Shown here in pieces: positions 14,718-56,420 of a DNA stretch of 64,000 nt (position 1 is the first letter of the stretch; each line of letters opens with the position of its first letter). The translations under genes were made by a program, and so were the position numbers. The notes beneath the pieces are model-generated. The model was given only the letters and a program-made list of their open reading frames with translations. It was not told the DNA's origin and made no database searches. The stretch is from Saccharothrix espanaensis DSM 44229. GTDB lineage: Bacteria > Actinomycetota > Actinomycetes > Mycobacteriales > Pseudonocardiaceae. The DNA is taken from the NCBI RefSeq assembly GCF_000328705.1, contig NC_019673.1:4898001-4962000 (forward strand). Direction: 5' to 3'.

Positions 14718-14727
14718 CCCTGGAGCG

Positions 14728-15120: not shown

Positions 15121-15274
15121 GGACCTCGGACCCGGGCCGCCGCCGACCCGTTCCCGACGCCCGGCCCGAACCCGCTTCCCGGCGTCGTGACGCGCGTCAC
15201 CCCTGATCGCTCCCGCCGACGAGGGCGGCCGGGGCACCGCGAGGGGCCGACGAGATCGTCCTTAGGCTGAACGC

Positions 15275-15664
15275 ATGATCTTCTACACCGATGCCGAGAG
15301 CCGGACCCTGCGCAAGGCCGTCTTCGGCGTGATGGTGCTGGTGTCGCACGCCGACCCCGGCCCCGTGCTGGAGGAGCGCTACGCCGGTCTGCGGGCCCTC
15401 ACCCACCTGTCGCCGGAGTTGCGCGGCGTGCTGCACGCCTCCCGCCCCGACCTCCCCCCGGTCCCCGACGCCGAACTGGAGGAGCAGGTCGTGCAGGCGC
15501 TGGTGGCGTCGCTGAAGATCCTCACCGCCAAGGCCCCCGCGGACGCCGCCACGTTCCCGGCCGCCGTCGAGGCGATCTGCCACGAGGTGGCCGCCGCCGA
15601 CGGCCAGGTGGCCGAGGTCGAGGCCGCGGTGACCGCCAAGGTGCGCGCCGCCCTCAACGGCTGA
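15275..15664 (+). CDS. Small helical protein, possibly TerB-like
   Basis: This 129-aa, all-helical product has a last segment (EAICHEVAAADGQVAEVEAA, then VTAKVRAAL) that resembles the TerB/DjlA-type helical bundle, in which an acidic pair after an ADG turn is typical. The resemblance is short, so the assignment is tentative. ATG 15275; no partner genes. Confidence 0.5.
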   Translation: MIFYTDAESRTLRKAVFGVMVLVSHADPGPVLEERYAGLRALTHLSPELRGVLHASRPDLPPVPDAELEEQVVQALVASLKILTAKAPADAATFPAAVEAICHEVAAADGQVAEVEAAVTAKVRAALNG

Positions 15665-41699: not shown

Positions 41700-41759
41700 A
41701 CGCGGTCCCCGGTCGACCTTCCGCCGCACGGGGGCGCGAAGATCGACCGGGGACCGCGT
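41700..41759 (+). terminator. Long-stem hairpin after the metalloprotease gene
   Basis: A perfect 17-bp inverted repeat (41700-41716 and 41743-41759, ACGCGGTCCCCGGTCGA) with a 26-nt GC-rich loop, 69 bp after the stop. A long-loop terminator, or possibly a site for another factor. Confidence 0.6.
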
Positions 41760-42391: not shown

Positions 42392-43153
42392 ATGGAAGCC
42401 TCAGTGATCAAGACGAATGAGCACGCCAAACTGATCTCCCAGGCGCGTGTCGGCGACGACGCGAGCGGGTGGTCCCGCACCGCTTTCGGCGAGATCGCGG
42501 ACCGGCTCACCGAACCGGATTTCCCCTGTGTTTTCTCGAAGAACGCCTTCCGGAAGCAGATCGTCCAGTTCCTGTTCGTGCCGGATGCCGGCAGCGACGG
42601 GATCCGGCACCTGGCCGACGGGCTGCTGGAGTACGTCGAGCTGTCCCGCCGCTGGGACGGCCGGCTCGATTCGGCCAGTCCGCTGGTCGTGGTTTTCGGG
42701 CCGGCCGCGGTGAATGCGCGGTCGGTGGCCGACTACCACGCTTTCGGCTGGCAGGTGCTCTCCGCGCTGCACGACCTCGACCCGGCCGGGTGGCCGGAGG
42801 GGATCGGCACCGATCCCGATTCCGAGGGCTGGTCCATGTGCTTCGACGGCATGCCGCTGTTCGTCAACATGAGCAACCCGGCGCACCGGGTCCGCCGCAG
42901 CCGCAACCTCGGCGGGCACTTCGCGCTGGTGGTCAACCCGCGTGAGCGGTTCGACGTCTTCGCCGGCGACACGCCCAGCGGCCGGCGGGTCCGGGCGAAC
43001 ATCCGCGAGCGGGTCGAGCGCTACGACGGCACGCCGCACTCGTGGCAGCTCGGTTCCTACGCGGACGGCGAGCTCGAGTGGCGGCAGTACGGGCTGATCG
43101 AGGAGAACGCCGAGCGCACCGACCGGTGCCCGTTCACGTTCCGCCGCGCCTGA
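42392..43153 (+). CDS. dcsA: Heme-dependent N-hydroxylase of the YqcI/YcgG family (DcsA-like)
   Basis: This 253-aa protein has the YqcI/YcgG features FPCVFSKNAFRKQIVQFLFV, WQVLSALHDLDPAGWPEGIG, MCFDGMPLFVNMSNPAHRVR and HFALVVNPRERFD. This family includes the heme protein DcsA, which N-hydroxylates L-arginine in D-cycloserine biosynthesis, and related guanidine hydroxylases. It is the first gene of the cluster and is directly followed by the hydroxyarginase that would use its product. Candidate heme ligands cannot be assigned by eye. ATG 42392; GTG 42404 is possible. Confidence 0.85.
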   Translation: MEASVIKTNEHAKLISQARVGDDASGWSRTAFGEIADRLTEPDFPCVFSKNAFRKQIVQFLFVPDAGSDGIRHLADGLLEYVELSRRWDGRLDSASPLVVVFGPAAVNARSVADYHAFGWQVLSALHDLDPAGWPEGIGTDPDSEGWSMCFDGMPLFVNMSNPAHRVRRSRNLGGHFALVVNPRERFDVFAGDTPSGRRVRANIRERVERYDGTPHSWQLGSYADGELEWRQYGLIEENAERTDRCPFTFRRA

Positions 43154-43208
43154 CGTCGACTCGGCGGTGGAACGGACAGTCGGTGCAACAGACAGGGAGT
43201 GCTGGTCG

Positions 43209-44030
43209 ATGATTGATCTTGTTGTGTCCCAGGGCCGGGTGGCCGACCGGGCGGCGCGGATGATCGAGGGCGCGGCGCGCACCGCGCGGGCCCTGGAGGA
43301 CCGCTACGGCGTCAAGGGCGAGTTCATCGGGGAGCCCGCGCCGGCGGTCGTGGACGACTGGACCCAGAGCCTGCCCCAGGCGCAGGACACGCTGGTCGGG
43401 CTGCGGCGGGCGGTGGAGGCCAGCTTCCGGGCCGGGAACGTGCCGGTGATGGTCGCCAACACCTGCTCGGCGAGCCTGGCCACGCTGCCGGTCGTGGCCC
43501 GGGAGCACCCGGACGCCGTGGTGCTCTACATCGACGCGCACGGCGACTTCAACACCCCGCAGACCACGGACTCCGGCTACCTGGGCGGCATGGTGCTGTC
43601 GGCCGCGTGCGGGCTCTGGGACAGCGGGCACGGTTCCGGGCTGCGGCCCGAGCGGGCCGTGCTGGTCGGGACCCGCGACGTCGACGCCGCCGAGCGCGAG
43701 CTGCTGGACCGGGCCGGGGTCCGGGTCATCCCGCCCGAGGAGGCGTCCGCGGCCAACGTCCTGGCGGCCGTCGGCGACGCCCGGGTGTGGGTGCACATCG
43801 ACTGGGACGTGCTGGACCCGGCGTACCTGCCCGCCGACTACGTCGTGCCGGACGGGATGTCGCCCGCCCAGATCCGGGCGATCTTCGCGGCCATCCCGCC
43901 GGAGCGGCTGGTCGGCGTCGAGGTGGCGGAGTTCAACGCGCCGCTGGACGACCAGGCCGCCGCCGAGGGGGTCGCCACCATCCTGGACATGCTCGCGCCC
44001 GTCTTCGAGGCGCGGGCGGGCGCCCGGTGA
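43209..44030 (+). CDS. dcsB: N-hydroxy-L-arginine hydrolase (DcsB-like, arginase family)
   Basis: This 273-aa protein releases hydroxyurea from N-hydroxyarginine. Metal-binding motifs: YIDAHGDFNTP (D109, H111, D113) and VHIDWDVLDP (D198, D200, D203); substrate-side EVAEFNAP. The usual arginase GGDHS His ligand is replaced: the segment reads VANTCSASL with Cys86. That substitution separates hydroxyarginase from housekeeping arginase and agrees with what I recall of DcsB. Its stop overlaps the next gene's GTG by 4 bp. Confidence 0.92.
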   Translation: MIDLVVSQGRVADRAARMIEGAARTARALEDRYGVKGEFIGEPAPAVVDDWTQSLPQAQDTLVGLRRAVEASFRAGNVPVMVANTCSASLATLPVVAREHPDAVVLYIDAHGDFNTPQTTDSGYLGGMVLSAACGLWDSGHGSGLRPERAVLVGTRDVDAAERELLDRAGVRVIPPEEASAANVLAAVGDARVWVHIDWDVLDPAYLPADYVVPDGMSPAQIRAIFAAIPPERLVGVEVAEFNAPLDDQAAAEGVATILDMLAPVFEARAGAR

Positions 44031-44869
44031 CCTCCCTGCCGTTCAGCAAGATGCACGGTGCCGGCAACGACTTCGTCGTGCTCGACCTGCGCGACGCGGC
44101 CGACCCCTCGCCGGAGCTGTGCCGCGCGCTGGCGGACCGGCACACCGGGGTCGGCTGCGACCTGGTCCTGGGCGTCGCGCCCCCGCGCACCGCGGACGCC
44201 GTCGCGTCCTACCGGATCTGGACCGCCGACGGCTCCCCCTCCCCGCAGTGCGGCAACGGGGCCCGGTGCGTCGCGGCCTGGGTGGTGCGCGCCGGGCTGG
44301 CACCGGGCACCGGCTTCGTGCTCGACAGCCCGGCCGGCACCCACCAGGTGGACGTGCTGGACGACGGCGGGTTCCGGGTCGTGCTGGCGGTGCCGCGGTT
44401 CGCACCCGACGACGTCCCGCTGACCGGCTTCGACGCCGAGCAGGACCGGTACGAGGCCGAGGTGGGCGGGAGGAGGCTGAGCTTCGCCGCCGCGTCGGTC
44501 GGCAACCCGCACGCCGTGATCGAGGTCGACGACGTCGGTACCGCACCCGTCGCCGACGTCGGCCCGGCCCTGCAGGGCTCGGGTCTGTTCCCGCCGACGG
44601 TCAACGTCGGCTTCGTCGAGGTCGTCTCCCCGGAGCGGATCCGCCTGCGCGTGTTCGAGTACGGCGCGGGCGAGACCCTGGCCTGCGGCAGCGGCGCGTG
44701 CGCCGCGGCCGCCGTGCTGATCCGGCAGGGGCGCGTCAAGCGCGACCTCGTCGTCTCCCTCCCGGGCGGTGACCTCCACGTCGAGTGGCCCGACCCGTCC
44801 GCACCGATCGCCCTGGCCGGCCCGGCCGTCTTCTCCTTCGAAGGACAGTTCCCCCATGCCGCTCTATGA
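44027..44869 (+). CDS. dcsC: O-ureidoserine racemase (DcsC-like, diaminopimelate-epimerase fold)
   Basis: This 280-aa, PLP-independent two-base racemase has KMHGAGNDFVVLD at the start, catalytic C75 in QCGNGARC and C220 in TLACGSGACA. In DapF the second motif is normally ERGAGET; here it is EYGAGET (Tyr212), removing an Arg that holds a carboxylate of diaminopimelate. The change suits the neutral ureido side chain. It converts O-ureido-L-serine to the D form. GTG start coupled to dcsB; its end overlaps dcsD by 14 bp. Confidence 0.9.
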   Translation: MTSLPFSKMHGAGNDFVVLDLRDAADPSPELCRALADRHTGVGCDLVLGVAPPRTADAVASYRIWTADGSPSPQCGNGARCVAAWVVRAGLAPGTGFVLDSPAGTHQVDVLDDGGFRVVLAVPRFAPDDVPLTGFDAEQDRYEAEVGGRRLSFAAASVGNPHAVIEVDDVGTAPVADVGPALQGSGLFPPTVNVGFVEVVSPERIRLRVFEYGAGETLACGSGACAAAAVLIRQGRVKRDLVVSLPGGDLHVEWPDPSAPIALAGPAVFSFEGQFPHAAL

Positions 44870-45833
44870 CAGCATCCTCGACACCATCGGCCGCACGCCC
44901 ATCGTCCGGCTCAACCGGCTCTCCCCCGGCCACGCCACGGTCTACGTCAAGGTCGAGTCGTTCAACCCGGGCGGCTCGGTCAAGGACCGGCTGGCGCTGG
45001 CCGTCATCCTCGACGCCGAGGAGAAGGGGCTGCTCAAGCCCGGCGACACGATCGCCGAGTGCACCTCCGGCAACGTCGGCATCGCGCTGGCGATGGTCGC
45101 CGCCGCCCGCGGCTACAAGTTCGTGGCGCTGATGGGCGACACGTACTCGGTGGAGCGGCGCAAGCTGATCCGCGCGTACGGCGGCAAGGTCATCCTGTTC
45201 CCCGGCAGCGAGGGCAGCGCGGGCGGCAACCGCCGGGCGGACGAGCTGGCCGAGAAGTACGGCTGGTTCCGCGCCAACCAGTTCGACAACCAGGCCAACC
45301 CCGCCTACCACCGGGAGACCACCGCGGCGGAGATCCTCGCCGACTTCGCGGGCAAGCGGCTGGACTACTTCGTCACCGGCTTCGGCACCACCGGCACGCT
45401 CACCGGCGTGGGCCAGATGCTCAAGCTCGCCCGGCCCGGGGTGCGCGTCATCGCCACCGAACCGGAGAACGCCGCGGTGCTGTCCGGCAAGGAGTGGAGC
45501 GTCCACAAGATCCAGGGCTGGTCGCCCAACTTCGTGCCCAGCCTGCTGGACCGGACCGTCATCGACGAGCTGATCACCGTCAACGAGGACGAGGGGCGCG
45601 ACATCGCGCGCCGGCTGGCCGTCGAGGAGGGCATCTTCGCGGGCATCTCCGCCGGCGCCACGCTCGCCACGGCGTTGCGCGTGGCCGAGACCGCGCCGGA
45701 GGGCTCCGTGCTGCTGGCGATGCTGCCCGACACCGGCGAGCGCTACCTGTCCACGTTCCTGTTCGACGGGGTGAGCGAGGAGTCCGACGACGAGTGGCTG
45801 GCGTCGCTGGAGCCGGCCCCGCGCGACACCTGA
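44856..45833 (+). CDS. dcsD: O-ureido-L-serine synthase (DcsD-like, cysteine-synthase fold)
   Basis: This 325-aa PLP enzyme condenses O-acetylserine with hydroxyurea. PLP Lys43 is in NPGGSVKDRLA; the substrate loop reads CTSGNVGIAL where cysteine synthases have TSGNTGI (Val74 for Thr), and the glycine-rich phosphate loop is GFGTTGTLTGVG. It may also make cysteine. ATG 44856 lies inside the end of the racemase gene, with GAAGGAC upstream, so the two are coupled. Confidence 0.9.
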   Translation: MPLYDSILDTIGRTPIVRLNRLSPGHATVYVKVESFNPGGSVKDRLALAVILDAEEKGLLKPGDTIAECTSGNVGIALAMVAAARGYKFVALMGDTYSVERRKLIRAYGGKVILFPGSEGSAGGNRRADELAEKYGWFRANQFDNQANPAYHRETTAAEILADFAGKRLDYFVTGFGTTGTLTGVGQMLKLARPGVRVIATEPENAAVLSGKEWSVHKIQGWSPNFVPSLLDRTVIDELITVNEDEGRDIARRLAVEEGIFAGISAGATLATALRVAETAPEGSVLLAMLPDTGERYLSTFLFDGVSEESDDEWLASLEPAPRDT

Positions 45834-45883
45834 TCGGACACCCCCACCCCGAGCGGGCACCCGAGCGGAACAGGAGCAGGCGC

Positions 45884-47041
45884 ATGGCAGAGTTCGTCCC
45901 CCCGGCAACGCGCTTCGTCGACCTGCCCGCGCCCTTCCGGATGAGGCGCGGCGGCGTGCTGCACGGCGCGCGCATCGGCTACGAGACGGTCGGCGAGCTG
46001 AACCCGGCCGGTGACAACGCGGTGCTGATCCTCACCGGGCTCTCGCCCAGCGCGCACGTCGCCGCGCACCCGGACAACCCCGCCCCCGGCTGGTGGGAGG
46101 CGATGGTGGGGCCGGGCAAACCGGTCGACACCAACCGCTGGCACGTCGTCTGCGTCAACTCGCTGGGCAGCTGCATGGGCTCGACCGGGCCGCCGTCGCC
46201 GGACCCGGCCACCGGCGAGCCCTACCGGCTGCGGTTCCCCGACCTGTCCGTGGAGGACATCGCGGACGCGGCGGCCGCGGCGGTGCGCGCGCTGGGCTAC
46301 GAACGGCTGGCGTGCGTCATCGGCGCGTCCATGGGCGGCATGAGCGCGCTGGCGTTGTTGACCCGGCACCCCGAGCTGACCCGCAACCACGTCAACATCT
46401 CCTCGGCGGTCCACTCGCTGCCGTTCTCCATCGCCGTGCGCTCCCTCCAGCGCGAGGCCATCCACACCGACCCGCGCTGGGACCTGGGCCGCTACGACGA
46501 GGAGAGCTACCCGGACCGCGGCATGCTCATGGCCCGCAAGCTGGGCATGATGACCTACCGGTCGGCCGACGAGTGGGACACCCGGTTCGGGCGGACGCGC
46601 GTGGCCCCAGAACGGGGCCCAGAACCGAGTTCAGCGCCGGGCTTCGAACCGGGCCCGGAACCGGCCACCGCGCCGTTCGGCGCCGAGTTCGAGGTGGAGC
46701 GCTACCTGGAGTGCCACGCCCAGCGCTTCACCCGCCGGTTCGACCCGAACAGCTACCTCTACCTCAGCCGCAGCATGGACTGGTTCGACCTCGGCGAGTC
46801 GTGCGGCGGCACCGCCGAGGAGGCGCTCGCCGCGCTGCGCCTGGACAAGGCCCTGGTGATCGGCGTGCAGACCGACCTGCTGTTCCCGCTGCGCCAGCAG
46901 CGCCAGATCGTCGAGGGGCTCAGCGCCGGCAGCGCCGACGTCGGGTTCCTGGCGCTGGAATCGCCGCAGGGTCACGACGCCTTCCTGGTCGACACCGCGC
47001 GCTTCGGACCGCCGGTGTCGAAGTTCCTGTTCGAGCTGTGA
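45884..47041 (+). CDS. dcsE: L-serine O-acetyltransferase of the MetX family (DcsE-like)
   Basis: This 385-aa alpha/beta hydrolase-fold acyltransferase has the nucleophile Ser in IGASMGGMSALAL, Asp in GVQTDLLFPLRQQ and His in SPQGHDAFLVD. The segment LTGLSPSAHVAAHP replaces the homoserine-specific loop of true MetX enzymes, which I associate with serine-specific members. It supplies O-acetylserine to DcsD. Oddity: a Pro/Glu-rich insertion of about 25 residues near 243-267, encoded by imperfect GAACCGGGCCC-like repeats. ATG 45884 after CAGGAG. Confidence 0.88.
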   Translation: MAEFVPPATRFVDLPAPFRMRRGGVLHGARIGYETVGELNPAGDNAVLILTGLSPSAHVAAHPDNPAPGWWEAMVGPGKPVDTNRWHVVCVNSLGSCMGSTGPPSPDPATGEPYRLRFPDLSVEDIADAAAAAVRALGYERLACVIGASMGGMSALALLTRHPELTRNHVNISSAVHSLPFSIAVRSLQREAIHTDPRWDLGRYDEESYPDRGMLMARKLGMMTYRSADEWDTRFGRTRVAPERGPEPSSAPGFEPGPEPATAPFGAEFEVERYLECHAQRFTRRFDPNSYLYLSRSMDWFDLGESCGGTAEEALAALRLDKALVIGVQTDLLFPLRQQRQIVEGLSAGSADVGFLALESPQGHDAFLVDTARFGPPVSKFLFEL

Positions 47042-47068
47042 CCACCCCCGGAACGGAAAGAGCCCGAC

Positions 47069-47815
47069 TTGACCGCACACCAGCCGAAAACAGCGCTCGT
47101 CACCGGGGCCAACCGCGGGATCGGCCGCGAGATCGCGCGCCAGCTCGCCGGGCACGGGATCCACGTGCTGCTCTCCGGGCGCGACCGCGACGCCGTCACC
47201 GGGGCGGCGCGGGCCCTGCGCGGCGAGGGCCTCGACGTCGAACCGCTCGTGCTCGACGTGACGAGCTCCGAGAGCATCAGCGCCGCCGCGGCGGAGGTCG
47301 AACTGCGGCACGGCAGCCTCGACATCCTGGTCAACAACGCGGGCGTCCGGGTCGAGCAGTACGGCAAGAAGCCGTCGGAGCAGTCGCTGCGGGAGTGGCG
47401 GGAAACCTTCGACACCAACCTGTTCGGCGTGGTCGAGGTGACCATCGCCTTCCTGCCGCTGATCCGCCGCTCGCCGGCCGGCCGCATCGTCAACGTCGCC
47501 AGCATGCTCGCGTCGCTGACCCGGCACAGCGACGTCGGGTCGTACACCTACAGCGACACGTTCAAGGCGCTGCCCGCCTACAGCGCGTCCAAGAGCGGGG
47601 TCAACTCGTGGACCGTGCACCTGGCCTACGAGCTGCGTGACACGCCGATCAAGGTGAACTCGGTGCACCCCGGCTACACCAAGACCGACATGAACGACGG
47701 CGCGGGCGACCTCGACGTCCAGACCGGCGCCCGGACCGGCGTCGGCATGGCCCTGCTCGACGACGACGGGCCGACCGGCAGCTACGTGCACATGGGGGAA
47801 GTGGTGCCCTGGTGA
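47069..47815 (+). CDS. Short-chain dehydrogenase/reductase in the dcs cluster
   Basis: This 248-aa classical SDR has TGANRGIG, LDILVNNAGVR, the Ser of NVASMLASL, and YSASK with catalytic Tyr and Lys, then VHPGYTKTDMN. It lies between the dcsE- and dcsG-like genes and is coupled to dcsG (GTGA). The accepted D-cycloserine route needs no oxidoreductase, so its role is open: it may be the cluster's DcsF counterpart, a tailoring step or a bystander. TTG 47069 is the only start compatible with an intact Rossmann strand. Confidence 0.88.
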   Translation: MTAHQPKTALVTGANRGIGREIARQLAGHGIHVLLSGRDRDAVTGAARALRGEGLDVEPLVLDVTSSESISAAAAEVELRHGSLDILVNNAGVRVEQYGKKPSEQSLREWRETFDTNLFGVVEVTIAFLPLIRRSPAGRIVNVASMLASLTRHSDVGSYTYSDTFKALPAYSASKSGVNSWTVHLAYELRDTPIKVNSVHPGYTKTDMNDGAGDLDVQTGARTGVGMALLDDDGPTGSYVHMGEVVPW

Positions 47816-48711
47816 AGACCGTCGCGCTCGTCACCGACGAGATCAGCCTGCCCATCGACCACGACATGCCCCCGCTGCTGCACGCGTGCCGGGCGGCGGG
47901 CCTGGTGCCCGAGGTGTGCGACTGGTACGACACCTCGGTCGACTGGTCGCGGTTCGACGCCGTCGTGCCACGCTCGCCGTGGACCTACGTGGACCGCCTG
48001 CCGGACTTCCTCGCCTGGTGCGAGGAAGTCGACGCCGCCACGCTCCTGCTCAACCCCCTGGCGATCGCGCGGTGGGTGCTGGACAAGCACTACGTCGCCG
48101 ACCTCGCCGCCCGGGGCGTGCCGGTCGTGCCGACCAGGTTCGTCGCGCCCGGCACCGACCCGCTCCCGGTGGTGCGCGAGGTCCTCGCCGAGCACCAGGG
48201 CGCCAAGGAGGTCGTGGTCAAGCCGACCATCGGCGCGTACTCCAAGAACGTCCAGCGGTTCGCCCGGCCGCTGGTGGAGGAGGCCGCCCGGTACGCGGGC
48301 AAGCTGCTGGACAACGGCGCCCACGTGATGGTCCAGCCCTACTTCGAGTCGGTCGACCGGCACGGGGAGACCGACCTGATCTTCTTCGAGGAGGAGTTCA
48401 GCCACTCCATCCGCAAGGACGCGATGCTCAGCCCGGACGGCACGGTGAACGTGCCGACGCTGGACACCCGCACGCCGCGCGAGGCCGACGCCGAGGAGCG
48501 GGCGGTCGCGCTGGCCGCGCTCGACGCGGCGGCGTCGCACCTGGGCATCGAGCGGCCCCTGCTCTACGGGCGGGTGGACCTGATCCGCGACGACGACGGC
48601 CGCCCGGTGGTGCTGGAACTCGACCTCTGCGAGCCGTCGCTCAACCTGCCCTTCACCGACACCGGCGCGACGCGGTTCGCCGAGGCGTTGGCGAGGCGGC
48701 TGGGGTCGTAG
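47812..48711 (+). CDS. dcsG: D-cycloserine synthetase (DcsG-like, ATP-grasp)
   Basis: This 299-aa ATP-grasp ligase has ATP-binding elements KEVVVKPTIGAYSKNVQRFA, NGAHVMVQPYFESVDRHGET, the metal-binding Glu/Asn end LYGRVDLIRDDDGRPVVLEL and LDLCEPSLNLPF. It would activate and cyclise O-ureido-D-serine to D-cycloserine, releasing CO2 and ammonia. Size and gene context match the S. lavendulae synthetase as I recall it. GTG 47812 overlaps the SDR stop. Last gene of the contiguous seven-gene operon. Confidence 0.9.
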   Translation: MKTVALVTDEISLPIDHDMPPLLHACRAAGLVPEVCDWYDTSVDWSRFDAVVPRSPWTYVDRLPDFLAWCEEVDAATLLLNPLAIARWVLDKHYVADLAARGVPVVPTRFVAPGTDPLPVVREVLAEHQGAKEVVVKPTIGAYSKNVQRFARPLVEEAARYAGKLLDNGAHVMVQPYFESVDRHGETDLIFFEEEFSHSIRKDAMLSPDGTVNVPTLDTRTPREADAEERAVALAALDAAASHLGIERPLLYGRVDLIRDDDGRPVVLELDLCEPSLNLPFTDTGATRFAEALARRLGS

Positions 48712-48752
48712 TGCGGTCACCGCGCCCGGCGTCGGACGGCGCGCTGCTCGCC

Positions 48753-48806
48753 GTGCGCGGATCCCCCGCCGGGCGCGGATTCCCCGCCACGCGCGGGTTT
48801 TCCGCC
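48753..48806. repeat. Three tandem 18-bp repeats downstream of dcsG
   Basis: Units start at 48753, 48771 and 48789 and share GCGCGGATTCCCCGCC-like sequence. Read in one frame they give xRGFPA hexapeptides, but no gene frames them. They lie in the 235-bp gap before the exporter gene. Confidence 0.65.
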
Positions 48807-48946
48807 GTCCACGTGGGGCCGGCTGCGGTAGCGCGCGCCCGACAGCCGCACCAGGTCGCGGTGCGGGCAATCCGCGCTATTGCGGCAAGAAACTCGTTGA
48901 CCGCGTGAGAACGCCGACCAATTCCTGCTGACTGCTACGGTGGACC

Positions 48947-49855
48947 ATGAAAACGGATAGTAGCGCTACCGCTCCTATCGGAGTATCACCACTGTCGAAG
49001 CGCCAAGGCACCATCTACGCCTCGCTGGCCGTGCTGACCTTCTCCTTCAGCTTCCCCGGAACGGTGTGGGCGCTCGACGGGTTCGGCCCGTGGAGCGCCG
49101 CCGGCGTGCGCGGCGTGCTGGCCGCGCTGATCGCGCTCGCGGCACTGCTGGCCACCCGCGCCCCGCTCCCGGCGCGCTCCGACTGGCCCGCGCTCGCCGT
49201 GGTCGCCGGCGGCTGCGCGGTCGGCTTCCCGCTGCTGACGACGCTCGCGCTGCAAACCTCGTCCACGGCGCACTCGGCGGTGGTGATCGGCGCGCTGCCG
49301 ATGGCCACCGCGGTGATCTCCGCGCTGCTGACCAAGCGCTACCCGTCCGCCCTGTTCTGGGGCGCGGCGGGGACCGGCGCGGCGGCCGTCATCGGGTTCA
49401 CCCTGGCGCAGAACAACGGCATGCCCACCGTCGCCGACCTCTACCTGTTCGCCTCGCTGGTGGTCTGCGCGGCCGGCTACGCCGAGGGCGGCCGGCTGTC
49501 GGCGCACATGCCGGGGTGGCGGGTGATCGCGTGGGGCGTCGTGCTCGCCGCGCCGGTGAACCTCGCCGTGTCGGCGGTCGCGCTGGTGCAGGAACCGGTG
49601 CACCTCACCGTGAAGGCCGTCGCCGGGATGGCCTACATCGCCGCGATCTCGCAGTTCGGCTCGTTCGTCCTGTGGTACCGGGGAATGGGGCTCATCGGCG
49701 TGGTCCGGGCGAGCCAGCTCCAGCTCGCCCAGCCGCTGCTGACGCTCGTGTGGTCCGTCCTGCTGCTCGGGGAGCTCCTGAGCCCGGCCGTCCCGATCAC
49801 CGCCGTCGTCGTGCTCGCCTGCATCGTGGTCACGCAACGCGCGAGAGCCTCCTGA
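48947..49855 (+). CDS. EamA/DMT-family exporter, probable D-cycloserine efflux
   Basis: This 302-aa protein has about ten membrane helices in two EamA halves (SLAVLTFSFSFPGTVWAL, VLAALIALAALLATRAPL, and in the second half WGVVLAAPVNLAVSAVAL, AVPITAVVVLACIVV). DMT proteins export small amino-acid-like molecules. Position directly after dcsG makes it the likely counterpart of the membrane protein DcsJ. It has its own promoter region (gap 235 bp) and ATG 48947. Confidence 0.85.
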   Translation: MKTDSSATAPIGVSPLSKRQGTIYASLAVLTFSFSFPGTVWALDGFGPWSAAGVRGVLAALIALAALLATRAPLPARSDWPALAVVAGGCAVGFPLLTTLALQTSSTAHSAVVIGALPMATAVISALLTKRYPSALFWGAAGTGAAAVIGFTLAQNNGMPTVADLYLFASLVVCAAGYAEGGRLSAHMPGWRVIAWGVVLAAPVNLAVSAVALVQEPVHLTVKAVAGMAYIAAISQFGSFVLWYRGMGLIGVVRASQLQLAQPLLTLVWSVLLLGELLSPAVPITAVVVLACIVVTQRARAS

Positions 49856-49859
49856 CCGG

Positions 49860-50408
49860 TCAGCCGTCCCGCAGGGGCGATTCGGTCAGGATCCGCCAGC
49901 CCAGACCGGTCAGCCGGTGCCGGACCGCGCCGCCGTCGCGGCGTGAGGCGATGAGCCCGACCTTGCGCAGCTCCGTCGCGCCCTGGGAGGCGGTGGAGGG
50001 GCTGACCGCCAACCGCTGCGCCAGGTCGGACGTGGTGCTCTCCTGCCGCAGCGCGTGCAGGATGCGCACCCGGGTGCGCCCGAAGACGCCCGTCAGCGCG
50101 TCGAGCCGCTCCTCGTCCGGCCGCGGCGCGGGCCCGAGCGGGCAGCACAGCGTCGCGGGCCGGTCGCCCTCCTCGGTCAGGGTCGGTTCCGAGCACCCGG
50201 CACCCAGGACGACCACGAGGCCGCGGCCGTCGAGGTGGACGTCCCGCTCCGGGTGCCGGTTCACCAGCAGCGTCGGCGGACACCACCGGACGTCCGGGTG
50301 CACCCGGTTGAGCGCCTCCTCCAGGCAGGCCCCGGCCAGGTCCTCGGGGAAGGCACCGCCGAACCGGACCCTGGCGAGGTCGGTGAGGCCGAAGTGCACC
50401 CTCAGCAT
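49860..50408 (-). CDS. ArsR-like winged-helix regulator with N-terminal DUF5937-type region
   Basis: This 182-aa protein has an N-terminal half HFGLTDLARVRFGGAFPEDL that resembles actinobacterial ArsR-associated DUF5937 proteins. The C-terminal half is a winged helix (TGVFGRTRVRILHALRQEST then TSDLAQRLAVSPSTASQGAT). ATG 50408 after GGGGGAG. It converges on the exporter with 4 bp between stops, so it is a candidate cluster regulator. Confidence 0.78.
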   Translation of the reverse strand: MLRVHFGLTDLARVRFGGAFPEDLAGACLEEALNRVHPDVRWCPPTLLVNRHPERDVHLDGRGLVVVLGAGCSEPTLTEEGDRPATLCCPLGPAPRPDEERLDALTGVFGRTRVRILHALRQESTTSDLAQRLAVSPSTASQGATELRKVGLIASRRDGGAVRHRLTGLGWRILTESPLRDG

Positions 50409-50854
50409 CTTCTCCCCCAAGAATGCGACACACCGCGTCGGCGATCGGGCCGACGCACGTCCGCGAGTCAGCATACCCAGCGACCCGACTGTTTCCAGAG
50501 GTGCCCGCGCGGTCCGCCGAGAGGCGAATTGTCCACCCTGGTAACAGGCCCGCGATTCACTCGTTCGGCGGCCCGTAAACGATCTTCGTCCCGCTTTCTG
50601 AATTAATCGAGAAGGGAGCGGCCGAACCCCGGCACCGAAGGGGTCCGCAGGTGGGTGCGCTGAACGGTGGCTTTCCGCGCCTACCACCGGGGTGTAGTGC
50701 CGGCCAGGTATCTCCATCTGCGACAAATCAATTCCGGCACACCACCGGACACCCGGTCGACCGTTAGCTGCGCAAGTACGAAGTAGAATTCAGCAAGAAT
50801 TGACCGACCCGCCGCCGAACGGCCGCACGGCCAGGGCCGCTACAGTCCCCGGAC
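50409..50854. other. Intergenic region between divergent regulator and C39-like genes
   Basis: About 450 bp, noticeably more AT-rich near 50570-50600 and 50720-50800 (for example TGAATTAATCGAGAAGG). No gene. Promoters for both flanking genes are expected here; no clear dyad was found. Confidence 0.4.
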
Positions 50855-51610
50855 GTGAACAGCGCAGAACCCCTCCCGCCCACCACCGGGACGCCGGATC
50901 CGGAGGTGCCGGGACAGGGTTGGCCCGGCGGGCGGTACGCGCCGCGCATCACCGAGCACTCGTTCGTCTGCCAGTTCGACACGCTGGCGGTGCCCGACCT
51001 CGCCAAGCGCATGTGCGGCCCGGCCTCCGCGGCGATGGTGCTGGCCCACCAGGGGCTCCTCGGCGACCAGTGGCGCGCGGCCGGCTCGCTCGCCCCGTTC
51101 GTGCGCCACGTGATCGACGCGCACGTCGACGGCGCGACCGACGTGCTGCGCCGCCGGTACACCGGGCACGGCCAGGAGTTCGACGTCACCGTGCGGCGGG
51201 TCGCCCAGCCCGACACCTGCGTGGACGGCGCGCTGGTCCGACGCCCGGACGACCGGGTCGAGCGCGGCGACGAGGCCCGGTTCACCCCCGCGTTCACCAT
51301 GGTCGGCGGCTACGACCACCGGTTCTCCGCCGCGCTGTTCGGGACGTTCGGGGTGGCCGCCCGCCTGCACCGGCTCGACGTGCGGGAGTTGGCGGCGCAG
51401 TTCGACCGCGGCGAGCTGGACTTCTTCCTGGCCTCCGTGCGCGGCGCGCTCTACGAGGGCAGCCACGTGGTGGTCGTGGACGGCTACCGCGACGGCGTGT
51501 TCACGGTGGTGGACCCCTCCGACCCCGTCTACCGCGCGGCGGTGCGCTTCTTCCCCGAGGAGACCATGGCGCACCTGTTCAACGGGTTCGGGACGGCGGT
51601 CCTGAGGTGA
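50855..51610 (+). CDS. C39-like papain-fold cysteine peptidase
   Basis: This 251-aa protein has a catalytic-type Cys in RMCGPASAAMVLAHQG, His in YEGSHVVVVDGYRDGVFTVV and Asp in VVDPSDPVYRA, the C39/NlpC-papain arrangement. It has no signal peptide or ABC-transporter domain, so it is not a bacteriocin exporter. It may process or sense a small peptide, or be a stand-alone hydrolase near the dcs genes. GTG 50855; its end overlaps the convergent MFS gene by 32 bp. Confidence 0.72.
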   Translation: MNSAEPLPPTTGTPDPEVPGQGWPGGRYAPRITEHSFVCQFDTLAVPDLAKRMCGPASAAMVLAHQGLLGDQWRAAGSLAPFVRHVIDAHVDGATDVLRRRYTGHGQEFDVTVRRVAQPDTCVDGALVRRPDDRVERGDEARFTPAFTMVGGYDHRFSAALFGTFGVAARLHRLDVRELAAQFDRGELDFFLASVRGALYEGSHVVVVDGYRDGVFTVVDPSDPVYRAAVRFFPEETMAHLFNGFGTAVLR

Positions 51611-52784
51611 CCCCGGCGATCACGCCCAGCAGCGCGAGCGAGACCACGGCGGCGGCCACCCCCAGCCCCCGGTAGCCCCACGCGGTGACCGCCGCGCCGG
51701 CCGCCACGCCGCCCAGCGCGCCGCCGACGTTCATCACCATGTCCGAGAACCCCTGCACGGTGGCGCGCGAGGCGGCCGGGACCGACTCGCCGAGCAGCGC
51801 GGACCCGGCGACGAGCCCGCAGCACCAGCCGATGCCGAGCACGGTCAGGCCGACCGCCAACAGCACCAGGTCGTGCCCGTGCGCGCCCGCGACCAGCAGC
51901 CCCGACACCGTGAGCAGGACGGCACCGGCCGCCAGCACGACACGGCGTCCGCGCCGGTCGGCCGCCCAGCCGACCAGCGGGCTCAGCGCGTACATCCCGG
52001 CGATGTGCAGGCTCATCACCAGGCCGATCGCGGTCAGCGACGCGGCGCCGTGCCCCATGTGGACCGGGGTCATCGACATGACGCCGAACATCACCGCCTG
52101 GCCGACCACCAGGGCCGTCAGCGCCACCAGGGCCGGGCGCGACCCGCGCACCGCCCGCCACGCGCCGGGGCCCCGGACCGGCGTGGCGGCCACCGGCGCC
52201 CGGCGGTCCAGGCCGACCAGGACGGTCAGCGCCGCCAGGCCGTAGGCCAGCGCCGACACCAGGAACGGGCCCGCGGCCGGGGCGAGGCCGAGCGCGGACG
52301 CCGCCCACCGGCCGGGTGCGGCGAGGTTGGGGCCCAGCACGCTGCCGACCGTGGTGGCCCAGACGACCAGCGACAAGTCGCGCGCGCGACGCCCGGGAGG
52401 GGCGTCGTCGGCGGCGGCGAACCTGGCCGCGAGGATCGCCGTCGTCCCGCTGCCGAACAGGACCAGACCCACGAGCAGGAACGGCCAACTGCCGGCGGCG
52501 GCGCTGCACGCGGCGAGGAGGGCGCCCAGCGCCCCGACCCCGTGCGCGGCCGCCAGCGACAACCGGCGGCCGGCGCGCGCCGCGACCACACCCGCCGGGA
52601 CGGCGAACAGCGCGGCACCCAGCACGGCACTCGGCTGCGCGAGGCCGGCCAGGGCGTCCGAGCCCGACAGGTCGCGCACCGCGAGGGCGCCGACCACGAT
52701 CCCCGTGGCGACCCCGATCCCGCCGAGCACCTGCGCCGCGGCGAGCACTCCGAGAACGCGCGTCCGCGTGACCGATGATTGCAC
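51579..52784 (-). CDS. MFS transporter
   Basis: This protein of about 401 aa has 11-12 helices with the MFS loop GWAADRRGRRVVLAAGAV between helices and a duplicated half structure (GVLAAAQVLGGIGVATGIVV, LVSALAYGLAALTVLVGL, LGGVAAGAAVTAWGYRGLGV). It is a drug/metabolite-efflux type. GTG 52784 is taken as start; a GTG 13 codons earlier is possible. It could be a second exporter for the cluster, but its strand differs from the biosynthetic genes. Confidence 0.82.
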   Translation of the reverse strand: MQSSVTRTRVLGVLAAAQVLGGIGVATGIVVGALAVRDLSGSDALAGLAQPSAVLGAALFAVPAGVVAARAGRRLSLAAAHGVGALGALLAACSAAAGSWPFLLVGLVLFGSGTTAILAARFAAADDAPPGRRARDLSLVVWATTVGSVLGPNLAAPGRWAASALGLAPAAGPFLVSALAYGLAALTVLVGLDRRAPVAATPVRGPGAWRAVRGSRPALVALTALVVGQAVMFGVMSMTPVHMGHGAASLTAIGLVMSLHIAGMYALSPLVGWAADRRGRRVVLAAGAVLLTVSGLLVAGAHGHDLVLLAVGLTVLGIGWCCGLVAGSALLGESVPAASRATVQGFSDMVMNVGGALGGVAAGAAVTAWGYRGLGVAAAVVSLALLGVIAGVTSGPPSRTR

Positions 52785-53159
52785 CGGTCCACTGTCCCAG
52801 AGCTCCCCGGCCGCGCGCCGCACTTTTCGCGATCACCCGGAATAATCTTCGGTACTCCGTTCGGGTGCCGACTCTGTCGGTGTCCGAACATTGCAGACCC
52901 GTGGCCTCCATGTTACGTTGGAAACGCTTCGGCGAATGGGTGGTCGACCCGATCACCGCACTCGGTCGAACTGTCGACAGGGGTTATCCACCCAAGGTCT
53001 TCCACTGGGGAATTCCGTTTTCCGACCGCCGGTCCGCGCTTCTCCGCCGGATGTTCCGCGAGCGGACACCGGCCGACCGTCCGGGAAACTCATGGCGAAC
53101 AATCCCCCGGCGCAGGTGGAACCGAATCAGCCGCAATCGGGAACTGGGGAGGCACGGCC
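52785..53159. other. Upstream region of the resistance operon
   Basis: About 375 bp between divergent genes. The frame of the next gene stays open back to 52779 but without family signal or ribosome site. TTGGAAACGCTTCGG near 52918 and a moderately AT-rich 52840-52930 region are the likely promoter area. Confidence 0.4.
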
Positions 53160-54032
53160 ATGATGAAGAAGCACACCATCATCGCCTCGGAGGAGGAGTT
53201 ACACGAGTTCGTCCGCGACGAACTCGCCGAACGCGTGTCGGACGACCTGGTGATCATGGGTGGGCACTACATGCTGTTCGCCGACGAGGACTCCGACGCG
53301 CTGGTGCCCGGCATCATCGAGGAGCAGGCGTCGGAGACCATGCGCACGCGGATCGAGCGGCGCGTCGGCATCTTCCCCGGCTACACCTGGGACCTGGCCG
53401 TGGAACTGGCCGAGAAGCACGCGGGCCAGTTCGCCGACACCCGGCTGCTGCTGCTGGTCAACGACTGGCAGTACGTGCCGACGCGAGGCCGGTCGGCGAG
53501 CGAGTTGCGGGCCGAGCACTTCGCCGGCATGGACGCGCTGCCCGCCCGCTTCCGCGAAACGCTCGCCCGCTCGTCGGTGCTCTCCGAGGCCAACGTGCTC
53601 GCCAGCCGCAAGCACCCACTGGTCTTCCCGGAGACCTGGCTCAAGTACCGCTTCCAGAAGAGCGCGGACAAGCTCGTCAAGCAGGGCAGGCTGGAGAAGC
53701 GCCTGCTGGAGACCGGCCGCGCGGGCGACGCCGAGGTCTCCTTCCTCGACGCCGACGGCAACTACCGCACGCTGATCAGCTGCGGCGTCACCGGGTGCGC
53801 GGGCGAGATCACCGAGATGATCTCCGAGGTGCACCGCGCCGGCCACCGCACGCTGCTGATCTTCGCGCCGGGCGAGTGCTTCGCCCCGGTGCGCACGGGC
53901 GTCGAGATCGCCTTGGAGCTCTACGGCCTGACCGGTATGCACGTGCTCGTCGCCGACCCCGGTGGCAGCGGCGAGATGTCCGTGGCGGAGATCTACGGCA
54001 AGACGGTCAACGCCGTCTCGTTCCGGTCCTGA
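53160..54032 (+). CDS. Protein of unknown function, first gene of the resistance operon
   Basis: The family is not recognised. The soluble 290-aa protein has segments EEELHEFVRDELAERVSDDL, IMGGHYMLFADEDSD, TRLLLLVNDWQYVPTRGRSA, a basic middle LKYRFQKSADKLVKQGRLEK, then LISCGVTGCAGEITEMISEV and TLLIFAPGECFAPVRTGVEI. Two late cysteines (SCGVTGC, GECF) near a putative nucleotide- or metal-binding loop suggest an enzyme. GGGGAGG before ATG 53160 is strong. It is followed after 13 bp by the IscS-like gene and the D-Ala-D-Ala ligase, so the three act together. Confidence 0.8.
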   Translation: MMKKHTIIASEEELHEFVRDELAERVSDDLVIMGGHYMLFADEDSDALVPGIIEEQASETMRTRIERRVGIFPGYTWDLAVELAEKHAGQFADTRLLLLVNDWQYVPTRGRSASELRAEHFAGMDALPARFRETLARSSVLSEANVLASRKHPLVFPETWLKYRFQKSADKLVKQGRLEKRLLETGRAGDAEVSFLDADGNYRTLISCGVTGCAGEITEMISEVHRAGHRTLLIFAPGECFAPVRTGVEIALELYGLTGMHVLVADPGGSGEMSVAEIYGKTVNAVSFRS

Positions 54033-54045
54033 GGCGGTCCCCGCG

Positions 54046-55188
54046 ATGCACACCGTCTACTTGGACAACTGCGCGACCACCCGGTGTCGCGACGAGGTCG
54101 TGGAAGTGATGCTGCCGCTGCTGGGCGAGCAGTTCGGCAACCCGTCCTCCGCGCACGTGATGGGCCGGCTCGCCCGCCGTGAGGTGGACCGGGGCGTCGC
54201 GGCCGTCGCGCGCTTCGTCAACGCCGACCCGGCCGAGCTGACCATCACCTCGGGTGCCACCGAGAGCAACAACCTCGTCATGCTCGGCGCGTTCGAGCTG
54301 CACGAGCGGGCACCGGCCAACGTCGTGACGAGCCCGCTGGCCCACAAGTCCACGTTGGAGGTGGCGAAGGAACTGGCCCGGCGCGGCGTCGAGGTCCGCA
54401 CCGCGCCGGTGTCGCGCAGCGGGCAGGTCGACCTCCGCGCGCTGCGCGGACTGGTCGACGACAACACCCGGCTGGTGACGGTGGACTGGGTGAACTCGGA
54501 GATCGGCACCGTGCAGGACGTCCCCGCGATAGCGGAGGTCTGCCGCGCGCACGACACCCTGCTGCACGTCGACGCGGTGCAGGCGGCCGGCCGGATCCCG
54601 ATCGACGTGGCGGCCCTCGGGGTGGACGCGCTGTCCCTGTCCGCGCACAAGGTGTACGGCCCCAAGGGGATCGGGGCGCTGTACGTGCGCGCGTCCCGGC
54701 AGCACCGCATCCGCCCGCTGTCCTTCGGCGGCGGGCAGAACCGCCTGCGCAGCGGCACCCTGCCCACCCACCTGATCGTCGGCTTCGCCCGCGCCTGCGA
54801 CCTGGCGCGGCAGGAGCTGGCGGCGAACACCGAGCGCGCCCGGTGGCTGCGCCAGATCGTCTGCGACCGGGTGTTCGCGGCGGTGCCGGGCGCGAAGCTG
54901 AACAACGACCCCGAGGTCAGCGTGCCGCACATCATCAACGTCTCCTTCCCCGGCGTCACCGGGGAGAGCCTGGTGTCGAGCCTGTCGAAGGTCGCGATCT
55001 CGACCGGCTCGGCGTGCAACTCCACCTCGCTGCAACCCTCGCACGTGCTCAAGGGCATCGGGCTGGACGACGCGGACGCCAACAGCGCCGTCCGGATCAG
55101 CCTCGACCCGACGATGGACGAGGCCGACCTCCGCTACGGCCTCGACGTGCTGTGCGACCGCGTCCTGGCGCTGCGACAGGAGTTCTGA
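54046..55188 (+). CDS. IscS/NifS-like PLP enzyme (cysteine desulfurase or variant)
   Basis: This 380-aa class V aminotransferase-fold protein has H100 in PLAHKSTLE, D176 and Q179 in HVDAVQAAGR, PLP K202 in LSAHKVYGPKGIG and mobile-loop Cys324 in STGSACNSTS. Desulfurase residues are present, but it departs from the norm in LDNCATTRC (usually LDNNATTPV) and GGGQNRLRSGT (one residue shorter than GGGQERGLRSGT). No Fe-S scaffold gene is adjacent. Lying between the unknown gene and dcsI (2-bp gap), it may be a cycloserine-tolerant copy or act on a pathway amino acid. Confidence 0.87.
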   Translation: MHTVYLDNCATTRCRDEVVEVMLPLLGEQFGNPSSAHVMGRLARREVDRGVAAVARFVNADPAELTITSGATESNNLVMLGAFELHERAPANVVTSPLAHKSTLEVAKELARRGVEVRTAPVSRSGQVDLRALRGLVDDNTRLVTVDWVNSEIGTVQDVPAIAEVCRAHDTLLHVDAVQAAGRIPIDVAALGVDALSLSAHKVYGPKGIGALYVRASRQHRIRPLSFGGGQNRLRSGTLPTHLIVGFARACDLARQELAANTERARWLRQIVCDRVFAAVPGAKLNNDPEVSVPHIINVSFPGVTGESLVSSLSKVAISTGSACNSTSLQPSHVLKGIGLDDADANSAVRISLDPTMDEADLRYGLDVLCDRVLALRQEF

Positions 55189-55190
55189 GC

Positions 55191-56132
55191 ATGGCGACGC
55201 GAGAGGTCCTGGTCATCGCGGGCGGCACGTCCTCCGAGAGCGAGGTCTCCCTCAAGAGCGGCCGACGGCTGCTGGAGGGCGCGCACGCCCTCGGACTGCG
55301 CGCCGAGCTGGCGGTCGTCGAGTCCCCGGCGGACGTGGCGGCGTTGCCGCTCGGCGCGGGCGACCTCGTCCTGATCGGCCTGCACGGCGGCTTCGGCGAG
55401 GACGGCCGCCTCCAGGCGTACCTCGACGTGCTGGGCGTCCGGTACAACGGTGCGGGCCACCGGGCGAGCGCCGTCGGCATGGACAAGGTGCTGACCAAAC
55501 AGGTCGCGGCGTCGATCGGCATCGACACGGCACCGTGCGCGCTGCTGTCGGCGCACAGCGGTCCGCCGGCGTTCGCGGACGTCGCGCGGACGCTCGGCCT
55601 GCCGTTCGTGGTGAAGCCGCGTGCCCAGGGGTGCAGCGTCGACCTCGCCCTGGTGGAGGACGAGGCCGGGTACACCGACGCGGTGGCCGCCGCGATGCGA
55701 CACGACGGCCGAGCGGTCGCCGAGCACTACGTGGACGGCGTGGAGACCACCGTCGGCCTGCTGGCCGGCGAGATCCTGCCGGCCGTCGAGATCGGCTTCG
55801 AGGGCAAGCTGTTCGACCACGCCACCAAGTTCGTCCCCGGCAGGTCCGAGTACCGACCGTCCACCCTGCCCCGGGCCGTCCAGGAGCGGTTGGCGGAGCA
55901 GTCGGCCGCGCTGTTCCGCGAACTCGACATCACCGACTACGGGCGGGTGGACTACGTCGTGCCTCCCTCCGGCACCCCCGTGCTGCTGGAGATCAACACT
56001 CTGCCCGGCATGACGAACATGAGCGTCTACGTGTACGCCTGCACGGCGGCCGGACTGTCCTATGAGGACATGCTGAGCCGGATCATCAAGGCGGTGGAGG
56101 CCAAACAACACCAACCACGCCCGGAGAGGTGA
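55191..56132 (+). CDS. dcsI: D-alanine-D-alanine ligase, self-resistance (DcsI-like)
   Basis: This 313-aa ATP-grasp ligase has VIAGGTSSESEVSLKSGRRL, LIGLHGGFGEDGRLQ, GVRYNGAGHRASAVGMDKVL, FVVKPRAQGCSVDLAL, GRVDYV and the metal site LLEINTLPGMTNMS. D-cycloserine kills by inhibiting Ddl and alanine racemase; a Ddl copy in the cluster is the known self-protection device. Differences from housekeeping Ddl (GCS in place of GSS; AGHRASAVGMDK) may reduce inhibitor binding. ATG 55191 lies 2 bp after the IscS-like stop. Confidence 0.92.
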   Translation: MATREVLVIAGGTSSESEVSLKSGRRLLEGAHALGLRAELAVVESPADVAALPLGAGDLVLIGLHGGFGEDGRLQAYLDVLGVRYNGAGHRASAVGMDKVLTKQVAASIGIDTAPCALLSAHSGPPAFADVARTLGLPFVVKPRAQGCSVDLALVEDEAGYTDAVAAAMRHDGRAVAEHYVDGVETTVGLLAGEILPAVEIGFEGKLFDHATKFVPGRSEYRPSTLPRAVQERLAEQSAALFRELDITDYGRVDYVVPPSGTPVLLEINTLPGMTNMSVYVYACTAAGLSYEDMLSRIIKAVEAKQHQPRPER

Positions 56133-56150
56133 GCCGCCGGGCTCGGCCCG

Positions 56151-56385
56151 CTCGTGGGCCGCGTCGCGCGGCCCGGATGTGCGAGGTGCCGATCACCGCG
56201 CGGTCCCAGTCCAGACTGCCGGCCGAGTGCGGCTCCGCGAACAGCAGCCCGTGCAACCGGGACCAGACGCCGGCCTCGTTCCAGCCACGCGGCCGTCGCC
56301 GGCAGGTCATCACGGAACCGACGCCCAGCTCCTGCGGGAAAACTCCCGCTGGCTGCCGGTATACAGCACGAACAGAACGCCCCGC
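56151..56385 (-). mobile_element. Decayed IS5-family transposase fragment
   Basis: On the minus strand the sequence first reads GVLFVLYTGSQREF. It then continues in another frame as PQELGVGSVMTC, RGWNEAGVWSRLHGLLFAEP and AGSLDWDRAVIGTSHIRAAR. This is the N-terminal quarter of an IS5-type (DUF4096) transposase with a frameshift near 56345. No terminal repeats or catalytic C-terminal part remain. It sits directly between the dcs resistance operon and the UvrA-like gene. Confidence 0.8.
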
Positions 56386-56420
56386 AGGCCGCGCACCGCC
56401 GAGCCAGGAAACTTCGGGGC

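Follow-up and report, generated by a model that had tools for sequence, protein, structure and literature searches.

A probable D-cycloserine biosynthetic block in Saccharothrix espanaensis lies beside a candidate self-protection gene trio that also occurs on Priestia plasmids

We analyzed positions 42392 to 56132 of a 64,000-nucleotide stretch of the Saccharothrix espanaensis DSM 44229 genome (NC_019673.1, positions 4,898,001 to 4,962,000; hereafter the window) and found two adjacent units. The first, consisting of dcsA to dcsG and a gene for an EamA transporter, is very probably a D-cycloserine biosynthetic block, judging by its predicted proteins. The second is a tight operon of three genes (hereafter the trio) that encode an LPD16-domain protein, an IscS-like cysteine desulfurase homologue and, last, a Ddl-like ATP-grasp ligase. 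We propose that the trio serves as a portable cassette that protects its owner from alanine-mimicking drugs; to this reading, in which all trio functions are predicted, we assign a probability of roughly 0.57. The outer coordinates, from the start of dcsA to the end of the Ddl-like gene, are exact, and the open reading frames (ORFs) and their frames are as first read; the start codons are our choice, with TTG assumed for the short-chain dehydrogenase/reductase (SDR) gene. The block contains the following genes.

42392..43153, + strand: dcsA, YqcI/YcgG family, predicted heme-dependent L-arginine N-hydroxylase (PF08892, 212 bits)
43209..44030, + strand: dcsB, N-omega-hydroxy-L-arginine amidinohydrolase, predicted to release hydroxyurea (arginase profile, 99 bits)
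44027..44869, + strand: dcsC, predicted O-ureidoserine racemase of the DapF fold (diaminopimelate (DAP) epimerase profile, 160 bits)
44856..45833, + strand: dcsD, predicted O-ureido-L-serine synthase of the CysK fold (PALP, 234 bits)
45884..47041, + strand: dcsE, MetX-fold acyltransferase, predicted L-serine O-acetyltransferase (NCBIfam MetX)
47069..47815, + strand: SDR-family oxidoreductase (adh_short, 170 bits), a conserved part of dcs-like clusters
47812..48711, + strand: dcsG, predicted D-cycloserine synthetase, ATP-grasp (NF058666)
48947..49855, + strand: EamA/drug-metabolite transporter, candidate DcsJ-like exporter (PF00892, 77 bits)

Comparison with solved structures and equivalog profiles identifies DcsB, DcsC, DcsD and DcsG as pathway enzymes. 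DcsG passes the NCBIfam equivalog model for D-cycloserine synthetase (NF058666; 493.1 bits versus a cut-off of 360), and its sole match in the PDB is DcsG (6jil, 411 bits). PDB searches also gave 431 bits for DcsB with hydroxyarginine amidinohydrolase (6lug) versus 64 for the top ordinary arginase, 434 bits for DcsC with O-ureidoserine racemase (7vdy) versus 245 for the top DapF, and 574 bits for DcsD with O-ureido-L-serine synthase (3x43) versus 309 for the top CysK. A reading of this DNA made from the letters and the ORF translations (the sequence-only reading) had described seven contiguous D-cycloserine pathway genes and an EamA gene, and all of them are present. The comparison with primary metabolism that it called for was run for DcsC and DcsD; both score far higher to the cycloserine-pathway enzymes than to DapF and CysK of primary metabolism. 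In the same genome, the DapF-like gene elsewhere is 38% identical and the best CysK-like gene elsewhere 43% identical. The two DapF-type cysteine motifs of DcsC (starting at residues 75 and 218), the Mn-ligand motifs of DcsB, the pyridoxal phosphate (PLP) lysine motif of DcsD, the GASMGG motif of DcsE and the TGxxxGIG and YxASK motifs of the SDR are all intact.

Some profile results speak against assigning the block to cycloserine. DcsC clears the NCBIfam DapF model (223 bits versus a cut-off of 115), DcsD the cysK model (391 versus 351) and DcsE the MetX model (425 versus 331), so that profile annotation by itself would call all three primary enzymes, and DcsG is the only block protein that matches a cycloserine-specific NCBIfam model.

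The order of the pathway was reportedly established by Kumagai et al. in 2010. Following that scheme, DcsA would convert arginine to N-hydroxyarginine, from which DcsB would release hydroxyurea; DcsE would acetylate serine to O-acetylserine, which DcsD would turn into O-ureido-L-serine; and DcsC would convert the latter to its D form, which DcsG would cyclize to D-cycloserine at the expense of ATP. The EamA transporter would then export D-cycloserine, both the product and this cargo being predictions. The O-ureidoserine racemase step is stated in a passage of a review (PMC8142540). It is very improbable that the block is silent in this strain or that its product is a relative of D-cycloserine, for example O-ureidoserine. 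The product is a prediction from genes and dcsC varies among related clusters, but each of the seven reading frames is open and their order is intact, as are the checked motifs; dcsC, with its two cysteine motifs, is among them, and DcsG scores far above its equivalog cut-off.

We compared the block with 20 other dcs-like clusters, 16 of which came from a DcsA scan and 4 from a DcsG search. The DcsA scan yielded 18 loci with DcsA relatives at 52-74% identity, and 16 of the 18 had neighboring dcs genes. At the two others (L017, 9087-9812; L018, 10001-10669), in Marimonas and in a Rhodobacteraceae metagenome-assembled genome, DcsA relatives of 52-55% identity have no further dcs genes around them within the stretch that was fetched, which places the hydroxylase in another context. 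The DcsG search covered 390 genomes of the family Pseudonocardiaceae (relatives include Umezawaea and Actinokineospora) and found DcsG at 62% identity or more in 7 of them, including that of the window; 2 of the other 6 repeat clusters L001 and L011. DcsG-like ATP-grasp paralogues are common, as 232 of the 390 genomes match at E <= 0.001; below the 7 top genomes, the matches listed show about 40-51% identity (e.g., G000:C1:6985500-6986222).

Relatives in the 20 clusters were scored at E 1e-5, and several of the compared stretches are shortened by contig ends. DcsA, DcsB, DcsD and DcsE were found in all 20 (DcsE relatives at 48-79% identity), an SDR gene lies 3' of dcsE in every one (partial in L012, at a contig end), and DcsG is visible in 19, in one of which (L003) it is fragmented. 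In that cluster (11794-15578), a stop interrupts dcsD and dcsG is in pieces, one of them inverted, reflecting either decay or misassembly. The gene order of the block is kept in the other clusters. A relative of the EamA transporter occurs at 77-86% identity in 10 of the 20, and L008 and L010 carry one at 40-42%. By eye, we also noted ORFs for MocR-type (GntR-aminotransferase) regulators between dcsG and the EamA gene in L001 (16260-18086), L005 (15911-17785) and L010 (16446-18284, - strand); it is possible that these sense cycloserine through PLP binding. Collectively, A, B, D, E, the SDR and, where seen, G are the constant genes, and the racemase, the exporter and resistance are the variable ones.

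The window shares the racemase gene dcsC with 9 of the 20 other clusters; the remaining 11 of the 21 (L002-L009, L011, L014 and L015) lack it, and in these dcsB and dcsD are separated by 51-302 bp. In the 11 racemase-less genomes, most of them drafts, searches for DcsC found only DapF-like proteins at no more than 43% identity, and a sample of 10 proteins encoded in the flanks of four racemase-less loci included no racemase. On the DcsD tree, the presence and absence of dcsC requires at least 3 changes on well-supported branches; the less resolved DcsG and SDR trees force just 1. At position 217 of DcsG, Q occurs in 8 of the 10 racemase-less clusters compared versus 0 of 9 others (Fisher p 0.0007, kinship ignored), and position 146 is D in all 10 versus 1 of 9 others, both columns having been chosen for contrast from all columns. 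L-cycloserine is produced naturally by an Erwinia strain. From their gene content, the racemase-less clusters may make L-cycloserine.

The trio begins 3' of the block and consists of the following genes.

53160..54032, + strand: trio gene 1, LPD16-domain protein (PF18830, 41.9 bits; cut-off 27)
54046..55188, + strand: trio gene 2, IscS-type cysteine desulfurase homologue (Aminotran_5, 240 bits)
55191..56132, + strand: trio gene 3, Ddl-like ATP-grasp ligase (Dala_Dala_lig_C, 129 bits) with an altered active-site pair

From the end of the EamA gene (49855) to the start of the Ddl-like gene (55191) is 5.3 kb, and this interval holds the ArsR-like, C39-like, major facilitator superfamily (MFS), LPD16 and IscS genes. 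The layout is as the sequence-only reading had described it, with a Ddl-like gene 5 kb further on in a second operon, behind a regulator, a C39-like and an MFS gene (all three supported by profiles) and co-encoded with an IscS-like enzyme and an unknown protein, the latter of which proves to be the LPD16-domain protein. Its interpretation of the locus fared less well as a whole: the D-cycloserine block stands, but the "split resistance operon" does not as stated, given that the trio was unseen in the other fetched dcs-like stretches, that it occurs on a Priestia plasmid without adjoining dcs genes, and that its role in resistance is a prediction. Set against the Streptomyces lavendulae dcsA-dcsJ cluster, the window shares the A-B-C-D-E-(SDR)-G order and has Ddl-like and membrane-protein genes nearby; it differs in that the Ddl-like gene lies at the above distance past the EamA gene in a separate operon, and in that the block is without the second ATP-grasp gene (DcsH).

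When the LPD16 protein was compared with plasmid-encoded proteins, two Priestia plasmids matched at 58% identity, NZ_CP085444.1 of P. megaterium and NZ_CP072477.1 of P. aryabhattai. On both of them, the LPD16, IscS and Ddl genes occur in the same order and on the same strand as in the window. Priestia also provided the top plasmid match for the IscS-like protein (48%, 383 bits; other organisms reach at most 318 bits among the best 15 of 134 matches) and for the Ddl-like ligase (41%, 251 bits; other organisms at most 166 bits among the best 15 of 131). By gene order and protein similarity, the trio is conserved as a unit across two phyla.

L064, 8635-26079: P. megaterium plasmid cluster with the trio, ComX quorum sensing, AcpS, an acyl carrier protein (ACP) and two EamA transporters

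In addition, this cluster encodes an acyl-CoA dehydrogenase-like protein, an amino acid--[carrier protein] ligase, a thioesterase and an ATP-grasp ligase of the PRK07206 subfamily, which matched the dapdiamide synthase model below its cut-off. Genes for alanine permease and alanine racemase, which represent the other target pathway of D-cycloserine, are found there as well. Its gene content makes the cluster a candidate producer of an alanine antagonist. The trio is thus accompanied there by ComX, a carrier-protein pathway and genes for alanine handling, in contrast to the dcs genes of the window, and none of 11 P. megaterium cluster proteins matched DcsA-G at E 1e-3. On the P. aryabhattai plasmid, read for 6 kb on each side, we found the trio and ComX genes.

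Elsewhere, the LPD16 protein proved rare. Its sole match among the 390 family genomes, and likewise among 396 Actinomycetota genomes, was in the window's own genome, which is counted in each set; none was obtained from 392 genomes of another genus, presumed to be Streptomyces (a search without a positive control), nor from phage records or viral contigs. The titles and abstract openings of the literature matches listed contained nothing on an LPD16-IscS-Ddl trio or on a gene cluster for L-cycloserine.

The trio ligase is above the cut-offs of PF01820 and PF07478, reaches 251.9 bits with NF002378 (cut-off 243) and scores 167 bits to DdlB (3v4z); "D-Ala-D-Ala ligase" denotes its fold and subfamily, and its substrate is predicted. 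We aligned 30 Ddl proteins, namely those of the window and Priestia, 5 others from the window's own genome and 23 from 16 genomes with dcs genes. At the positions aligned with Ser150 and Tyr216 of E. coli DdlB, C and F are found in the trio ligases of the window and of Priestia (P. megaterium), whereas the other 28 have S at the first position in 27 and Y at the second in 26, with C at the first and F at the second in none. Glu15 of DdlB is kept in the window ligase, as are the fold and the subfamily of that enzyme, from which the trio ligase differs in the C/F pair. In DdlB, hydrogen bonds join Glu15, Ser150 and Tyr216 into a single group. The C/F pair may mark drug tolerance or another acceptor. 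A crystal structure, as given in an excerpt of its report, has Glu15 and Arg255 of DdlB within hydrogen-bonding distance of phospho-D-cycloserine (PMC5717164), and passages of two reviews name a Ddl and a membrane protein as the self-resistance genes of Streptomyces lavendulae (PMC6100412, PMC6804068).

The search for further Ddl genes that had been suggested together with the sequence-only reading found five strong and one weak Ddl-like places in the rest of the genome, which makes it unlikely that the trio ligase is the housekeeping Ddl. Ten other places in the genome match the trio IscS-like protein, the best at 39%. Since the genome holds further Ddl-like and IscS-like genes, the two trio proteins look like spares. 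The window itself contains a second gene of the class-V aminotransferase fold (10755-11657, - strand), whose product is 34% identical to the trio IscS-like protein.

The IscS-like protein shares with the IscS, NifS and DndA desulfurases the fold, the PLP lysine motif (SAHKVYGPKG at 199) and the catalytic cysteine motif (GSACNS at 321). It differs from them in scoring 356 bits versus the IscS equivalog cut-off of 548, in falling below every NCBIfam cut-off among the best 25 of 34 models, and in that its gene stands together with those of a ligase and an LPD16 protein. According to a passage of PMC11851464, Staphylococcus aureus SufS is inhibited by D-cycloserine with a half-maximal inhibitory concentration (IC50) of about 2.2 mM and by L-cycloserine with one of 62 µM, at 96 h. 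A spare desulfurase could therefore matter, and more so for the L form.

Three cysteines of the LPD16 protein are invariant between the window and Priestia, and two of them are kept in a remote homologue of 281 amino acids. What this homologue has in common with the trio protein is GHxxL, NDWQ, CAGE and one cysteine more; it has no Pfam LPD16 match. It is one of two weak matches obtained when 180 genomes from the phylum of a Pseudomonas locus were searched with the trio protein. The remote homologue (L138, 5760-6605, - strand) occurs on its own, and the adjoining membrane protein resembles a sodium:solute symporter by eye. PDB searches with the LPD16 protein returned chance-level matches only, and the single-sequence structure prediction had a mean predicted local distance difference test score (pLDDT) of 42.6, too low for use. 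A passage of a review on polyvalent proteins (PMC5512222) places LPD16 among the domains confined to polyvalent proteins of conjugative elements.

In the reading that we favor, self-protection, the spare Ddl with C/F in place of Ser150/Tyr216 would sustain the ligase step under drug, the spare desulfurase would substitute for a second target, since it belongs to a class of PLP enzymes open to inactivation by cycloserine, and the LPD16 protein would be an enzyme acting together with both. We favor it because a Ddl is named among the Streptomyces lavendulae self-resistance genes, because the P. megaterium cluster contains D-alanine-pathway genes, and because the active site of the trio ligase is altered. 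A bolder version of the same idea is that the trio is an immunity cassette of a new kind, common to unrelated clusters of Actinomycetota and Bacillota, in which a ligase with a rewired Glu15/Ser150/Tyr216 group would be combined with a decoy or spare desulfurase and with a cysteine-containing LPD16 enzyme that would handle the drug or repair PLP adducts; we regard this version as doubtful.

A number of observations weigh against self-protection. No relative of the Ddl, LPD16 or IscS proteins was detected in the fetched stretches of the 20 other clusters, and a Ddl more than 39% identical to the trio ligase was found in none of the 16 dcs genomes searched, so the trio would be dispensable for cycloserine production in general. 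The change of Tyr216 to Phe opens DdlB to D-lactate, and the C/F pair may therefore reflect a changed product instead of tolerance. Judging by the SufS value after 96 h, the desulfurase would be a weak target of D-cycloserine, and the protection reading leaves the LPD16 protein unexplained. The trio instances amount to one actinomycete and two plasmids with shared protein accessions. In the P. megaterium cluster, the only match outside the trio is the transporter beside it, a remote relative (19%) of the EamA transporter of the window. Finally, because both Priestia plasmids are typed as non-mobilizable, "portable" refers to the distribution of the trio alone.

The altered ligase pair is compatible with a changed substrate, and hence with the main rival to self-protection, namely that the three genes form a separate, small biosynthetic cassette. 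In it, IscS would provide sulfur, the LPD16 protein would use it, and the ligase would join the product to another amino acid; the trio would stand beside dcs genes here, and beside another peptide-like cluster in Priestia, by chance or convenience. The intact desulfurase motifs and the conserved LPD16 cysteines are consistent with such a role, as are the aminoacyl-carrier ligase, ACP, acyl-CoA dehydrogenase-like protein, ATP-grasp ligase and thioesterase next to the P. megaterium trio. However, the conserved trio includes neither a transporter nor a tailoring gene, and if the product were unrelated, the D-alanine-pathway genes in both hosts (a Ddl in the window; in P. megaterium a Ddl, an alanine permease and a racemase) would be an odd coincidence. 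We consider this explanation possible, though clearly less probable than self-protection.

The surroundings of the trio bear on another explanation, that it is unrelated to D-cycloserine and represents a mobile accessory operon for sulfur or cell-wall metabolism left by an insertion element. The genes between the block and the trio, and the feature at the 3' end of the trio, are as follows.

49860..50726, - strand: ArsR-type regulator (helix-turn-helix matches)
50855..51610, + strand: C39-like protein, weak Peptidase_C39_2 match (PF13529, 26.1 bits versus a cut-off of 24)
51579..52823, - strand: MFS transporter (MFS_1, PF07690, 113 bits)
56089..56421, - strand: probable IS4/5 transposase remnant (DUF4096, 19.5 bits, E 0.0012, below the cut-off of 34.3)

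The ArsR, C39 and MFS proteins had no relatives in the fetched stretches of the 20 other clusters, so that three genes without counterparts there separate the trio from the block. Directly 3' of the Ddl-like gene, the degenerate IS4/5-type insertion sequence remnant abuts the trio, and up to about 250 bp of this region (about 56137-56389) recurs in congeners at 72-90% identity among the matches listed. Together with the absence of the trio from the 20 other clusters, these features fit a mobile operon; a remnant in this position fits chance accretion too and to that extent counts against a protective role. On the other hand, the partner cluster in P. megaterium also concerns alanine metabolism, and the trio adjoins biosynthetic genes in the window and in P. 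megaterium, the P. aryabhattai plasmid having been read for 6 kb on each side; we consider a mobile operon improbable.

Since congeners conserve the M6-protease gene, we also searched its surroundings for an empty site by comparing eight congener stretches with the window. Beside the M6 gene, 4 of the 8 match other, distant stretches of the window, and the window's own M6-gene neighbors were found in none of the 8 at E 1e-20, so that the comparison yielded no insertion boundaries. Past the M6-protease gene, at 41700-41759 of the window, lies a 22-nt inverted repeat that is 95% complementary and is perhaps a terminator delimiting the dcs block. An Rfam scan of positions 38000-60500 at gathering thresholds gave no match.

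Taken together, our data add a new D-cycloserine block in another actinomycete, of a type that is itself already known. The comparison of dcs-like clusters separates constant from variable genes, and the racemase-less clusters pose a direct question, namely whether their product is L-cycloserine. The trio provides a testable candidate for self-protection in two unrelated pathways, with a ligase that differs at its active site from standard Ddl enzymes, which a tuberculosis drug targets.

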